Source: Planctomycetota bacterium (lineage in GTDB: Bacteria > Planctomycetota > UBA1135 > GCA-002686595). Taken from it: 36,634 nt of DNA. Below, in pieces: positions 4,724-34,508 of this stretch; position 1 is the stretch's first letter, and the number at the start of each line of letters is the position of its first letter. The translations under genes and the position numbers were made by a program. The stretch covers positions 1-36,634 of the forward strand of contig JACRIO010000154.1 of NCBI GenBank assembly GCA_016220035.1. The letters are read 5' to 3'. The notes under the pieces are model-generated. The model had not been told where the DNA came from. It was given only the letters and a program-made list of their open reading frames with translations, and searched no databases.

Positions 4724-5800
4724 ATGCGACGCGCGCTCACCGTGCTGCTCTTCTTCTCCCCGTCCGCTCTGCTCCACGCCGGCAGCTTCACCGTTTCGAC
4801 CAACGTCGGCGGACCGATCCCCGCCGTCGGCACCGGCGGCGTCGGCGCCGTCTGGCCGACGCAGTTGCCCGCGGATCCGGCGATCTCGCAGATCACGCTT
4901 CCGCACGAGGTCGCGAGCGTCACGAACATCAGCATCACCGGCCTCGCGCACCCGAGCGCGGGCGAGCTGCACGCCGCGCTGCGCGACCCGAACGGCATCT
5001 ACTACAACCTCTTCGTGCGCTCGGGCTTCGACGGCCTGGACAACTGGAACCAGGGGAATTTCTTCGGCCCGGTGTGCGGCATCGTCACGCAGAACAACAA
5101 TCCGTTCCCCGGCGGCCCCAACAACAACATCGGCGGGGCGATCTACACGCAGGACTTCGGGAACACGGGGACTCCGCCGGCTCCCTGGCCGAACGGGAAC
5201 GCGGGCATCGTCAACACGCCGCTCAATCAGATCTGGGGACCCGCGGGCACGTGGTCGCTCGTTCTCTGGGACTGGGAATCGGGCAACGTGGGGAGCTTCA
5301 CCGGCTGGTCGATGAGCGGAGTGCGGCCCTCGATCGAGACGATCTGCCTCGGCGACGGAACCGGCCTTCCGTGTCCCTGCGGGAACAGCGGCGCTCCCGG
5401 ACACGGCTGCAACAACTCGTCGAACACCGGCGGGGCGATCCTCACCGGCTCGGGCACGTTCACGCCCGACACGATCGTGCTCACGTCGACGGGCGAGCGC
5501 CCGACTTCGCTGACGATCTTCGTGCAGGGCGGCCAGGGTGTGCCGACGCCGTTCGGGGACGGAGTCGGCTGCCTCGCGGGGCTCTTGAAGCGCCTCTACG
5601 TGAAGAGCGCGGTCGGCGGCGTCGCGACGGCGCCGGAGCCGGGGGACCTATCGATCAGCGCGCGTTCCGCCGCACTCGGCTACACCATTCCGCACGGGGA
5701 GTTCCTCGTCTACCAGGCCTACTACCGCGACGTCAGCGCGACCTTCTGTCCCGGCGCGACGTTCAACGTGTCGAGCGGTCTGCGCATCACTTGGCCTTGA
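4724..5800 (+). CDS. Secreted protein with P-domain (proprotein convertase)-like region and shared Cys-rich C-terminal domain
   Basis: Signal peptide MRRALTVLLFFSPSALLHAGSF; ITLPHEVASVTNISITGLAHPSAGELHAALRDPNG...GTWSLVLWDWESGNVGSFTGWSM is P-domain-like; C-terminus CLGDGTGLPCPCGNSGAPGHGCNNS...YYRDVSATFCPGATFNVSSGLRITWP. Confidence 0.8.
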   Translation: MRRALTVLLFFSPSALLHAGSFTVSTNVGGPIPAVGTGGVGAVWPTQLPADPAISQITLPHEVASVTNISITGLAHPSAGELHAALRDPNGIYYNLFVRSGFDGLDNWNQGNFFGPVCGIVTQNNNPFPGGPNNNIGGAIYTQDFGNTGTPPAPWPNGNAGIVNTPLNQIWGPAGTWSLVLWDWESGNVGSFTGWSMSGVRPSIETICLGDGTGLPCPCGNSGAPGHGCNNSSNTGGAILTGSGTFTPDTIVLTSTGERPTSLTIFVQGGQGVPTPFGDGVGCLAGLLKRLYVKSAVGGVATAPEPGDLSISARSAALGYTIPHGEFLVYQAYYRDVSATFCPGATFNVSSGLRITWP

Positions 5801-29145: not shown

Positions 29146-29568
29146 GTTGGATCTCTTCTCTCCCCGCTCGCACCGGCCTCCATGACACGGTTGCGGTGGG
29201 GAGCTCATGGGAGAGGTGAGCCCTGGCCCGGCACGTGGAAAGGAAAGTCGAGAAAGCTGTCCGGTGACGGCGCATGCCTGTCCCGTTGGAACCTGGCCCC
29301 GTTCGCTGGCACGGAGCTCCCGGAGGGGGATGGTCGGCCGCCGAACCTTGGGATCGACGCCGCAGTAGGGCCCTGGGCTCACCCTGCCAGCGAAGGGTGC
29401 CGGCGTAGGTAGGCGTGAGCGCCAGGTCCCTGGCATGGGACTCCCCGAGGGCGGTCCGGGGAAGATGCCGACGCCCCCCTTCCTGACCCCAAGCAACCGG
29501 AGTAGGGTCGATCTCGGTGGGGAGCCTTTTCCCCACGAGATTCCTCTGCCCCGGAGGCTGCTCGTGAT

Positions 29569-29590
29569 TCTCTCTCTCTCTCTCTCTCTC
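29569..29590. repeat. (TC)11 dinucleotide microsatellite in signal-peptide coding region
   Basis: gtgat-tctctctctctctctctctctc-tgcag; 11 uninterrupted TC units. Confidence 0.97.
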
Positions 29591-29669
29591 TGCAGCTCTG
29601 CAGGCTCCGCCGACGCAACAGGTCTTCGACAACCTCGTCGCGAGCTACCCTTGGGGGCCGCAGCTGTGC

Positions 29670-32600
29670 ATGGCGGTCAGTGACGACGACACCCGCGCGT
29701 TCGTCGCCGCAGGCGCCGCAATCACGGTGCTCGACACGCAGATCGTCGAGGAGAACGTCCGACCCCAGGTGATCCACCGGCTCGAGCTCCCCGACTGCCA
29801 ACCCGTGTCCATGCTCTTTCACCATCCGGCAGGCACGATCCAACGGCGTCTCTACATCGCCGGTGGGACCACCGGCCTCTGGGAGGTCCCGATCTGCGCC
29901 TCGCTCTTCGCCAGCCCGCCTATCGAGTGCGCATCCTCTTTCTACGGGAGCCCCTACAACGCACCGCGACTCGTCGAAGAAATCGTCTCGAGCCAGCACC
30001 ACCGCAAGCGCTGCGTCGACGTGTGCGTCGTCGAAGGCAACTCGGCCGCAGGCGTGCCGCTGCTCTTCGCCCTTTTCGCGGCGCTCGCCGAGGGACCGTT
30101 CCCCGCCACCGAGCTGCACGCCTACGAGATCCTCCCCACGGGGAACACGGTCCAGCTACCCAACGGCCAGTACGTCCCGAACGACACCGTGCCCTATGGC
30201 GTGCCGTTGTCCTTCGGAACGGGATTGCAGGGGCCCTACAGCAAGTTCGCGTCGGGCACGGCCCTCGCGTCGGATCCGGGCGATCCCGATCATCTCTACG
30301 TGGCCTTGGGCAAGGGTGGGCTCGTTCGCGTGACGATCGGTGCGGGCGGCGCGCTTTCCGCAGATAGTCTCCCCCGTCCGGCATGCCCGAACCCGCAGCG
30401 CTGCCCGTGCGCGCCGAGCACGACCAACTGCGCTTCGCCCGGCGAGTCCGTGCGCGACCTGGCTGTGGCAAGGACGCCGACGCGCGCCTTCCTGTACGCC
30501 GCTTTCGAGTACAACGGCCTCGTCGAATACGACATTCTGCAGCAGCAAGCACCCTCCGGCTGGCTCTATGCCACCCTTCCTGGAGGGTCCCAGCCTCTAG
30601 GTTATTCCGAACGAGTCACGGCGATGACGGACGGGGGCCAGACCGTGTTCATCGCTCTCGCGAACCAGGGATCCTCCTACGTCTTGCCATACAGTCGCGC
30701 TCCATTTCGGAACACAGGCCTATGGTCAGACTTGTGCGTGGCCTCGGGAGTGCTGGATCAAAACTACGACACTGCGCTCGCCCAGGGTGGCAATGACGGC
30801 GCACGAACCCAGTATTCCGGAGCCAACACCGTGTATTGGTTCGATCGTGATGCCTTGGATGCTACGTTTCGCCCCACCCAGAGAATGGCCCATGATTACG
30901 ATCCCCTGTGGGGGACGCTGTACATGCACCGAGCAGGTGAGTGCGACTTCCGCCTCTACGAGTGCACGGACCACGGCGGAACTATCGTTCGTCAACTGCA
31001 CATTCCAGAGCAAATCGGCGCCTTCGACCCAAATGACCATCTTGGAAGCTACGTTCCAGAACCGGACACGTGGAATGTCTCCGCAGCCCATCTAGACCGG
31101 GTGTTCTCCGCTTCGGACGGGGTCGTGTCCCTGGTCAACCCGGGCCTTCTGTTCTTCGGGCTCGATGGACCAAGCGTCAAAGCCGAACCGGAGGCGAGCA
31201 TGTTCTTCATCACCCCACCGCCCAACGAAGACGTGCTGCCTGTCGTGGGCACATTGGGTACCGCGAGCCCCGTACCGACGATTCAGCCGAACGGTATTTC
31301 ACCGACAGGGTATGAAGACCCTCCGAATCCGTTCGTAGGCTCCCTACTGAACGCAGCTCATTGGATCGACCCCAATGATCCACTGCGAGAGTGGTTCATT
31401 CCAGGGGATCGTGTCTTACAGAAGTTCCTGCCGATACCTTGGCCGAGTTCCGCAGTGCCGGCCGGCAACTGTGCTGACCCGAGCGTGGTTGCCTGGCAAC
31501 TGGCACCGATACCTGGATCGCTTCGCTCGAGGATCGGCTGGCGCCCGACCTCCATGCGGCGGCTCACGCTACCTTCAACTCAGCCCGTGCCGACTGCAGC
31601 AGACCTCGCGCCCAATCTGAAGTGGTCGCAGGTCGTGAGTCCAACCTTCGTTCAGACTGACCGATCCGCCACGTCGCCGTACATCTCGTCCGACGTTGTG
31701 TTCGGGGCGAACGGCCAGCCAGTGCTCGTGGTCGGTGTCCGAGGAGGGACGGACCTCGGGTTGAAGCTGTTCATGGCCACCGAGTTCATGTCGATCCTGG
31801 ACGGCAGTGTATGCGGTCAACCTGCTCCGGCGGGAGTGGGCACCGCGGGAATCGGGGAGGCATTCACTCAGGGCACGAGTCTTGGAACGTCACCCGGTCC
31901 TCCTTTCGGTGGGGCATTCCCTGAGTTCCGCGAAGCGGTCACGCACTTCGAACTCGAAGGACCTGGGCCGGGGCTTGCACCTTGTGTTCAATACTCCAAG
32001 TGCGACAGTCTGGGATTCCCAGCCTCCCCTGTTGCACGTCGAAACTCTCGTTGTGCCGTTTTCACAGCCACAGATCTCGCCGGAGCCGGTCGTCGGGCGT
32101 GCATCGTGGCTTCGGGATTCATCGTGACGCCGACCGATCCTCCTCCTAGTAGTCCTCCTCAGAGTGTGTCCTGCCAATGGAGCCCGTACTACGGTCGAGC
32201 TCTCCTCTCAATCTACGACCTCGAGGATGCCGCTGCCTACGCCGAGAATCCCGTTGCAGGCATTCCCTTGCCCGAGCCCCAGCTCCTTCGAGTCTGTGTT
32301 GGTCCCCCGGTCACGACTGAGGGCGAGACGCACGCCTGGGCCGTGTGCGTCAAGGACTACCCCGGCACGGCAGGAGCACCCGACCGTCGCTACGCCTTCG
32401 TGGGAGATCTCCTGGGCAAGCTCCTCGTCTACGACATCAGCGGCGGGGCGGCCGGCAGCAACAAGCTCTACCCGCCGGCGGATTCGGCATTCCCGTACTT
32501 GCCCGCTGGGCCTCCATTCCCCGTGAACAGTCCCCCGCTTCTCGAACCCGTGGTGACGTTGCCTTTCCCGAAGGACGCCGACGATGGTCTGGGCGTGAAC

Positions 32601-32825
32601 TGCGTGGATCTCGAGCTCGATTATGCGAACAACATCCTCTACTGCGCGACTGGGCGCAGCGGTGTGGCCATCGTCGACGTCAGCAACCCGCTGAACCCGT
32701 CGCACATCGCGACGCTCGACACCCCCGGCATGGCCATCGGGCTCACGACGTGGACCACGGCCGGGAGCCAGCGCAGGCTGCTGGTTGGTGATTCGTTGTG
32801 TGGATTGCGCGTGTACAGCTACTGA
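29670..32825 (+). CDS. Large secreted LVIVD/beta-propeller-like protein; true N-terminus probably begins near 29546 in another frame (see finding)
   Basis: Uninterrupted ORF MAVSDDDTRAFVAAGAAITVLDTQIVEENVRPQVIHRLELPDCQPVSMLF...GVAIVDVSNPLNPSHIATLDTPGMAIGLTTW...GLRVYSY. In-frame sequence upstream of the ATG (AALQAPPTQQVFDNLVASYPWGPQLC) also reads as protein but has no start codon. Confidence 0.85.
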   Translation: MAVSDDDTRAFVAAGAAITVLDTQIVEENVRPQVIHRLELPDCQPVSMLFHHPAGTIQRRLYIAGGTTGLWEVPICASLFASPPIECASSFYGSPYNAPRLVEEIVSSQHHRKRCVDVCVVEGNSAAGVPLLFALFAALAEGPFPATELHAYEILPTGNTVQLPNGQYVPNDTVPYGVPLSFGTGLQGPYSKFASGTALASDPGDPDHLYVALGKGGLVRVTIGAGGALSADSLPRPACPNPQRCPCAPSTTNCASPGESVRDLAVARTPTRAFLYAAFEYNGLVEYDILQQQAPSGWLYATLPGGSQPLGYSERVTAMTDGGQTVFIALANQGSSYVLPYSRAPFRNTGLWSDLCVASGVLDQNYDTALAQGGNDGARTQYSGANTVYWFDRDALDATFRPTQRMAHDYDPLWGTLYMHRAGECDFRLYECTDHGGTIVRQLHIPEQIGAFDPNDHLGSYVPEPDTWNVSAAHLDRVFSASDGVVSLVNPGLLFFGLDGPSVKAEPEASMFFITPPPNEDVLPVVGTLGTASPVPTIQPNGISPTGYEDPPNPFVGSLLNAAHWIDPNDPLREWFIPGDRVLQKFLPIPWPSSAVPAGNCADPSVVAWQLAPIPGSLRSRIGWRPTSMRRLTLPSTQPVPTAADLAPNLKWSQVVSPTFVQTDRSATSPYISSDVVFGANGQPVLVVGVRGGTDLGLKLFMATEFMSILDGSVCGQPAPAGVGTAGIGEAFTQGTSLGTSPGPPFGGAFPEFREAVTHFELEGPGPGLAPCVQYSKCDSLGFPASPVARRNSRCAVFTATDLAGAGRRACIVASGFIVTPTDPPPSSPPQSVSCQWSPYYGRALLSIYDLEDAAAYAENPVAGIPLPEPQLLRVCVGPPVTTEGETHAWAVCVKDYPGTAGAPDRRYAFVGDLLGKLLVYDISGGAAGSNKLYPPADSAFPYLPAGPPFPVNSPPLLEPVVTLPFPKDADDGLGVNCVDLELDYANNILYCATGRSGVAIVDVSNPLNPSHIATLDTPGMAIGLTTWTTAGSQRRLLVGDSLCGLRVYSY

Positions 32826-32834
32826 GGTGCCGTC

Positions 32835-34508
32835 ATGACATTCACACGAGCAAGTCTTGGCGGCGGTTCAATCCGAAGTCTGCGCGGTGCAGGGGGGGCA
32901 GTCCTGTGTGCGGTACTCCTCGCCGATGCCATCGGTGTGCTTGCCAGCCGCTCAGCCGCACAATGCCAGTCGTACGATCCCACGTTTCAGAATGGATCGC
33001 TGCACGGGTATCACCTGCTGGACGGCTACACGTTCGACATGATCGTGCACGATGACGGATCGGGTCCGAAGATCTACGCCGGTGGCCAAATGGCTCCGGT
33101 GCCTGTGACCGGTCGCAATCTTGCCATCTGGAACGGAACGAGCTGGTGGTCACCATTGTATGTCGGAAGTATCTATGACGTGGTGTACGCGGTCGAGTTT
33201 TTCGATCGTGGCTTTGGCCCAGAACTGTACGCTGGGGGCAGCTTCTCGGCCCTGGGCAGCTACAATCTCATCCGCTGGGATGGCGGCTTCAACATGTCCC
33301 TCGTGCCAGCCCCGCTGGGCATCCCTCCGTTCCACTATGTCCTTGACTTGAAGACCTACGACGATGGCACAGGGCCATCTCTGTACGTCGGTGGGAACTG
33401 GACTGGAGTGTATGGCCAGAGCTTCCTGCTGCGTTGGGATGGGTTCGGTTCGTACCCGGTAGGGGCAGGGGTCAATGGCACAGTGCTCGCCATGGAGGTG
33501 TGGGACGATGGGACTGGATCGAAGCTCTATGTCGGAGGCACCTTCACACTGGCCGGGGGGATCCCCGTCGTCGGCCTCGCGAGCTGGGATGGGACGAGTT
33601 GGGCGGCGGTCGGGCCGACAAATCTGTCGCCCGGCGTCAGCAAGCTGGCGGTCGGGGATCTAGGCCGGGGACTGGAGTTGTTCGTTGCGCGAGGAGCGGA
33701 TATCGAGCGATTCCACGGTCAGACTTGGACGAGCCTCGGTCAAGTGAATGGGCAAGTCTGGGGACTTGTGGCATTCGACGACGGCACCGGTCCGGCATTG
33801 TTCGCCGGCGGAGGATTCACGCAGATCGGCGGCGTCTCAGCGAACAGACTGGCCAAATGGGATGGCCAGTCCTGGCATTCTCTAGGGTCCGGCGCCGATT
33901 CCACTGTCTATTCGATGGTCGCCTACACGGATCCGGCTGGTCCCAGGCTCTACTTCGGCGGTGGGTTCTCGCAGGTTGGCGCGATCTACTCCGACTACCT
34001 CGGCGCGTGGCGCGGCTGCTCGCAGCCGATCGAGCTCATGTGCCCTGCGGACGGCACGCTCGTCAACTGTCCGTGCGGCAACCTCGGCGCGACCGACAAC
34101 GGCTGCGGGAACTCGGTGAGCTCGGCGGGCGCGAGCTTGCGCGCCAGCGGGACGCCCGCGCTGAACGATGTCCAGTTCACTTTGATGAACGTCCCACAGG
34201 CGAGCCTGACGCTGCTCGTCCAGGGGCAGGGTTCGCGCACGGACAACCTCCCTTTCGGCGACGGCCTCTTGTGCCTCGACGGCCGGCTCGTGCGCATGTG
34301 GACGCGCACCGCGACGAGCGGATCCGTGCTCGTGCCCGATACGGGCGATCCGAGCGTCCTTGCGCGATCCGCCGCGCGCGGCGATCCGATCGGGGCCGGC
34401 GATGTCCGGTACTACCAGACCTACTATCGCGACGTCAGCGCGACCTACTGTCCGGCACCGTCCGGCGGCACGTTCAACGTGTCCAATGGCGTGCGAATCG
34501 TCTGGTAG
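32835..34508 (+). CDS. Secreted ~7-repeat beta-propeller-like protein with shared C-terminal domain
   Basis: Repeats DDGSGPKIYAGGQM, DRGFGPELYAGGSF, DDGTGPSLYVGGNW, DDGTGSKLYVGGTF, LGRGLELFVARG, DDGTGPALFAGGGF, DPAGPRLYFGGGF; C-terminus CPADGTLVNCPCGNLGATDNGCGNS...RYYQTYYRDVSATYCPAPSGGTFNVSNGVRIVW. Confidence 0.9.
   Translation: MTFTRASLGGGSIRSLRGAGGAVLCAVLLADAIGVLASRSAAQCQSYDPTFQNGSLHGYHLLDGYTFDMIVHDDGSGPKIYAGGQMAPVPVTGRNLAIWNGTSWWSPLYVGSIYDVVYAVEFFDRGFGPELYAGGSFSALGSYNLIRWDGGFNMSLVPAPLGIPPFHYVLDLKTYDDGTGPSLYVGGNWTGVYGQSFLLRWDGFGSYPVGAGVNGTVLAMEVWDDGTGSKLYVGGTFTLAGGIPVVGLASWDGTSWAAVGPTNLSPGVSKLAVGDLGRGLELFVARGADIERFHGQTWTSLGQVNGQVWGLVAFDDGTGPALFAGGGFTQIGGVSANRLAKWDGQSWHSLGSGADSTVYSMVAYTDPAGPRLYFGGGFSQVGAIYSDYLGAWRGCSQPIELMCPADGTLVNCPCGNLGATDNGCGNSVSSAGASLRASGTPALNDVQFTLMNVPQASLTLLVQGQGSRTDNLPFGDGLLCLDGRLVRMWTRTATSGSVLVPDTGDPSVLARSAARGDPIGAGDVRYYQTYYRDVSATYCPAPSGGTFNVSNGVRIVW

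Follow-up and report, generated by a model that had tools for sequence, protein, structure and literature searches.

Tract and reading frames

The window, the whole 36,634 nt stretch of DNA analyzed here, is one contig (C94) of a 4.78 Mb MAG (G000) that is split into 341 contigs and is 83.7% complete. PVC-type cytochrome proteins and PSD1 domains are present in this genome, and these sequence features suggest affiliation with the Planctomycetota. Near 29 kb the window carries a two-gene cassette. In the first gene, the signal-peptide coding region contains a perfect (TC)11.5 array, identified by direct reading of the sequence and by TRF, which found no other perfect dinucleotide array in the window. 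The features of the cassette, all read from the sequence, are listed below.

29435, + strand: ATG, alternative start in the same frame as GTG 29564
29465, + strand: ATG, alternative start in the same frame
29546, + strand: CTG, alternative start in the same frame
29553-29557, + strand: GGAGG, ribosome-binding-like
29564-29566, + strand: GTG, start candidate of the signal-peptide frame, with GGAGG 6 nt upstream
29564-29683, + strand: short reading frame of the sequenced (OFF) phase, ended by TGA at 29681-29683
29565-29567, + strand: TGA closing the mature frame, just 5' of the tract
29568-32825, + strand: open frame of the mature secreted protein, LVIVD-repeat-type, 1,085 codons, stop at 32823-32825
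29569-29591, + strand: (TC)11.5 microsatellite within the signal-peptide coding region (sequence, TRF and genome tract count)
32835-34508, + strand: gene B, the second gene, secreted and repeat-free, its ordinary signal peptide being in frame

An earlier note, made from this locus alone, had claimed that the TC tract parts the signal peptide from the mature protein by frame. This proved correct, since the start and n-region lie in one frame and the 1,050-aa ORF in another. The frame of CTG 29546 reads LPRRLLVILSLSLSLCSSAGSAD... and terminates at the TGA ending at 29683, as described. Frame reading likewise confirmed the TGA at 29565 in the mature frame and the absence of any start before 29670, and the mature frame is without a usable start of its own. 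Its earliest ATG, GTG or TTG is the ATG at 29670, whereas conservation of the mature ORF begins at about 29604.

Could the ATG at 29670 be the true start, with a cytoplasmic product and the tract in an untranslated leader? It does open a 1,051-aa frame. However, this codon falls within the conserved region, 3' of an LxASYPWGPQ motif that is conserved among paralogues in the alignment, so a start there would truncate a conserved domain. It is also without a ribosome-binding-like site, and in the one repeat-free paralogue (C247) and in more distant homologues a signal peptide lies in frame immediately 5' of the conserved region. We felt that this explanation was scarcely credible.

We assigned start codons by visual inspection, and no ATG lies near the tract in the window copy. 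The earlier note had chosen CTG 29546, which the alignment places opposite the ATG of paralogue C37, but a CTG is not required because GTG 29564, ATG 29465 and ATG 29435 had been overlooked. Its description of the cleavage site as A-x-A-like fits only loosely in the window copy, which reads L-Q-A, compared with AHA-Q, ANA-Q and VRA-Q in the paralogues. The tract encodes Leu-Ser-Leu-Ser whichever frame is read, and the arithmetic by which 12 or 9 TC units restore the frame is sound. A scan of the region upstream of the gene for sigma-70 promoters and terminators found nothing.

Protein identity

Pfam detected only LVIVD repeats in the window protein, where they score beneath the curated cut-off, and no homology to the outer-membrane β-barrels OipA (Hop) or Opa was found. 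A sequence search of solved structures with the mature protein returned no related one. The AlphaFold model of the mature protein was mostly β with a mean pLDDT of 53.6, too poor for a fold search.

Other secreted proteins of the window, at 5372, 13837(-), 16920(-), 27834(-) and 34949(-), have a C-terminal domain of ~140 aa that begins CPCGNxGxxGxGC. This motif is found 15 more times in 690 kb sampled from the genome; in 14 of these cases it precedes the stop by 125-134 aa, and the reversed motif does not occur in that sample. Pfam and NCBIfam assigned no family to the region in the members scanned. The domain is a candidate sorting or anchoring domain.

Five paralogous cassettes in the window genome

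The gene is present in five copies, and the window protein shares 39-43% identity with the other four. The gene starts are as follows.

C94 (window): (TC)11, out of frame
C37: ATG then (TC)12, out of frame
C212: ATG then (GCACTCTCGC)8, a 10-nt unit, out of frame
C216: ATG then (CGCTCTCCCG)5, a 10-nt unit, out of frame
C247: ATG, repeat-free, in frame

Repeats of non-triplet units thus lie inside the signal-peptide coding region of 4/5 paralogues. In all four the mature frame is the start frame +1.

The earlier note had proposed a genome survey for similar repeats. The whole 4.78 Mb assembly contains only two (TC)≥6 tracts, the one in the window at 29569-29591 and another at C37:7020-7043, and both sit in signal peptides at the starts of paralogous genes. 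By chance alone, both would fall within 5 x 60 nt of a single strand with a probability of about 1e-9. Perfect tandem repeats of at least 20 nt and at least 3 copies were found once in 690 kb (60 other contigs) versus four times in the five family starts. The single repeat in the 690 kb sample, (CCGCCGCCCC)4 on C61 (L187:5842-5881), is also a 10-nt, non-triplet repeat and lies within a long open frame.

Gene B served as an internal control. In 5/5 cassettes it has an intact in-frame signal peptide without repeats, so the assembly is not generally frame-broken. On C37 (L021) gene B is tandemly duplicated, with a second near-identical gene start after the first copy, 3' of the tract-bearing gene.

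Out-of-frame copies might be decaying pseudogenes in which the repeats are neutral, since none of the four tract copies in the window genome is in frame and a homologue in another genus (G085) is broken in frame again further downstream. Yet the mature ORFs, ~1,000 codons long, are intact in 4/4 tract copies and conserved across paralogues, and such repeats are scarce elsewhere in the genome. In the related genome G026, two OFF copies (C42 and C58) encode proteins that are 77% identical, and their nucleotide differences at codon positions 1/2/3 are 0.16/0.13/0.36. Such third-position-biased divergence implies purifying selection on the mature frame. Judged by these sequence comparisons there is no sign that the OFF copies are dead, and decay appears very improbable.

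Tracts in related genomes

A survey of 81 genomes of the family identified 48 (TC)≥7 tracts. Of the 48, 17 are coding-strand tracts within signal-peptide starts, against an expectation of about 1.4, and the excess remains significant (3e-8) even with near-identical copies collapsed. These tracts occur in several unrelated families of secreted proteins. Pfam assigned zero families to the tract-bearing secreted proteins other than the window protein. An order-level scan of 154 genomes added seven signal-peptide tract genes. No relatives were found in the genome-contig or viral-contig collections scanned.

Repeat number differs among closely related copies. G019 has four copies of the N-terminus of the window gene with near-identical flanks and 14, 9, 12 and 7 TC units; the copies with 14 and 9 units are ON and those with 12 and 7 are OFF. 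In G026, contigs C329 and C384 have near-identical flanks and carry 15 and 9 units, respectively. Repeat number sets whether the start and mature frame are joined, and both in-frame and out-of-frame copies are seen. In the G085 homologue an 8-nt unit, repeated three times, occupies the position of the tract, and the gene is out of frame. More distant homologues have ordinary signal peptides in frame.

Three further observations concern these genomes. On G085:C16 (L040) a second frame discontinuity lies near a CCCCCGACCCCCC stretch beyond the 8-nt repeat, and could be decay, a second switch or a sequence error. On G021:C206 (L064/L121) a (TC)30 tract lies upstream of a ribosome-binding-like site and the ATG of a secreted protein, possibly a transcriptional or leader version of the switch. 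Five tract contigs (G019:C8, C40 and C64; G026:C329 and C384) break off 116-180 nt beyond the tract. Near-identical copies, or tracts of mixed length, would be expected to interrupt the assembly there.

Repeats are prone to PCR and assembly errors, and the true tracts might all be in frame if the MAGs had lost or gained repeat units. The window genome is a fragmented, incomplete MAG, the loss of one TC unit would yield exactly the +1 phase, which is the commonest, and the G019 and G026 tract contigs are interrupted so soon after the tract. On the other hand, frames are also broken at short (TC)7-9 tracts and at 10-nt units, and short tracts and 10-nt units are rarely miscounted by sequencing. 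All three phases occur across genomes and loci, and near-identical copies differ by 2-7 units. Even in-frame tracts would still be unstable, non-triplet and confined to signal peptides. Consensus or assembly error is therefore unlikely, though it retains some weight.

Distribution of phases

Among 27 signal-peptide tract genes, 7 were in frame and 13 and 7 were in the two out-of-frame phases. This distribution is not different from equal thirds (chi-square p = 0.26) and is compatible with free slippage. Since starts were assigned by eye, G058 is ambiguous and the related copies are non-independent, we treat the count only as a consistency check; it does not amount to a strong test.

All nine TC or 10-mer tract genes of the window genome (four) and G026 (five) share the +1 OFF phase. 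Over all genes the +1 bias is not significant (11/15 OFF among the first 20 genes, p 0.12). For TC tracts the +1 phase is one unit below ON, which matches a deletion bias or consensus stutter, but the loss of one unit does not account for the +1 phase of the 10-mer genes. The shared phase in these two genomes counts against a contingency locus and is unexplained.

The same 9/9 offset raised the idea of recoding, in which the sequenced phase is functional and yields full-length protein, the frame being recovered when the ribosome slips by -2, or the transcribing polymerase slips, on the TC run. After a 2-nt slip the tandem TC would permit re-pairing of the tRNA or RNA polymerase. The 10-nt-unit paralogues have the same offset yet offer no 2-nt re-pairing, in-frame and +2 copies exist in other genomes, and near-identical G019 copies are in different phases. 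When the idea was tested on more genes, the overall distribution was compatible with uniform. We rejected recoding as quite unlikely.

A proposed switch

The tract is probably a phase-variable contingency locus of the oipA/opa type. The tracts, their positions and frames, the length differences of near-identical copies and the constraint on the mature frame were observed directly; slippage in cells, a surface or extracellular role and any benefit are all inferred, as is export, which rests on signal-peptide-like sequence alone. The claim of a phase-variable secreted protein, originally drawn from one locus, is supported by sequence comparison with tract-bearing paralogues, with the G019 copies that differ in length and phase, and with further families and genomes.

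In the proposed mechanism the (TC)n run would form the hydrophobic core of the export signal, and replication slippage would alter n. Because TC repeats give Leu-Ser in every frame, n would be free to vary without harming the signal peptide. With n = 12, 9, 15 and so on, the upstream start would read into the mature protein, which would be made and exported. With n = 11, as assembled, translation would halt within a few tens of codons (OFF). In four of the five two-gene cassettes the first gene would carry the switch, built from TC in two cases and from two distinct 10-nt units in the others, and further secreted proteins throughout the family and order would be controlled by the same device. 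mutS was found in the window genome, so nothing indicates an elevated slippage rate.

Comparison with known systems

Contingency loci in signal peptides are a textbook trait of host-adapted pathogens. The closest precedents, by analogy, are oipA and opa, in which the repeat lies inside the signal peptide itself. Helicobacter pylori oipA has CT repeats in the signal-peptide region whose number switches the gene ON or OFF by frameshift (PMC10564699). Both oipA and the window gene have a CT/TC dinucleotide run in the 5' signal-peptide coding region, but OipA is an unrelated outer-membrane protein of a host-bound epsilonproteobacterium, while the window gene encodes a large LVIVD-repeat-type secreted protein of a probable planctomycete, and its paralogues and homologues use 10-nt and 8-nt units too. 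Neisseria opa, a multicopy family with CTCTT repeats in the leader peptide, undergoes frameshift phase variation (PMC3960869). The multicopy families and the pyrimidine-rich repeat in the leader are alike; the opa unit is a pentamer, however, and its products are β-barrel adhesins with no sequence relation to the window proteins. According to one survey, avoidance of dinucleotide repeats extends across phyla, and long simple repeats are linked to host dependence (PMC4060949). We found no literature joining phase variation with Planctomycetota; searching under Planctomycetes gave general surveys.

The broader interpretation is that, throughout a whole order of bacteria that are free-living and probably planctomycetes, slippage-prone repeats within export signals are a general switch on many unrelated secreted families, with the repeat unit (2, 8 or 10 nt) re-invented at the same position in paralogues, and that a stochastic secretome exists outside host-adapted pathogens. 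We give this generalization an even chance of being correct. Gene callers will overlook or mis-start such proteins because the OFF phase conceals the signal peptide. If such a switch does act on several families in what are probably environmental planctomycetes, the random switching of secreted proteins would have a use beyond immune evasion, for example in relation to phage receptors, predation or division of labour.
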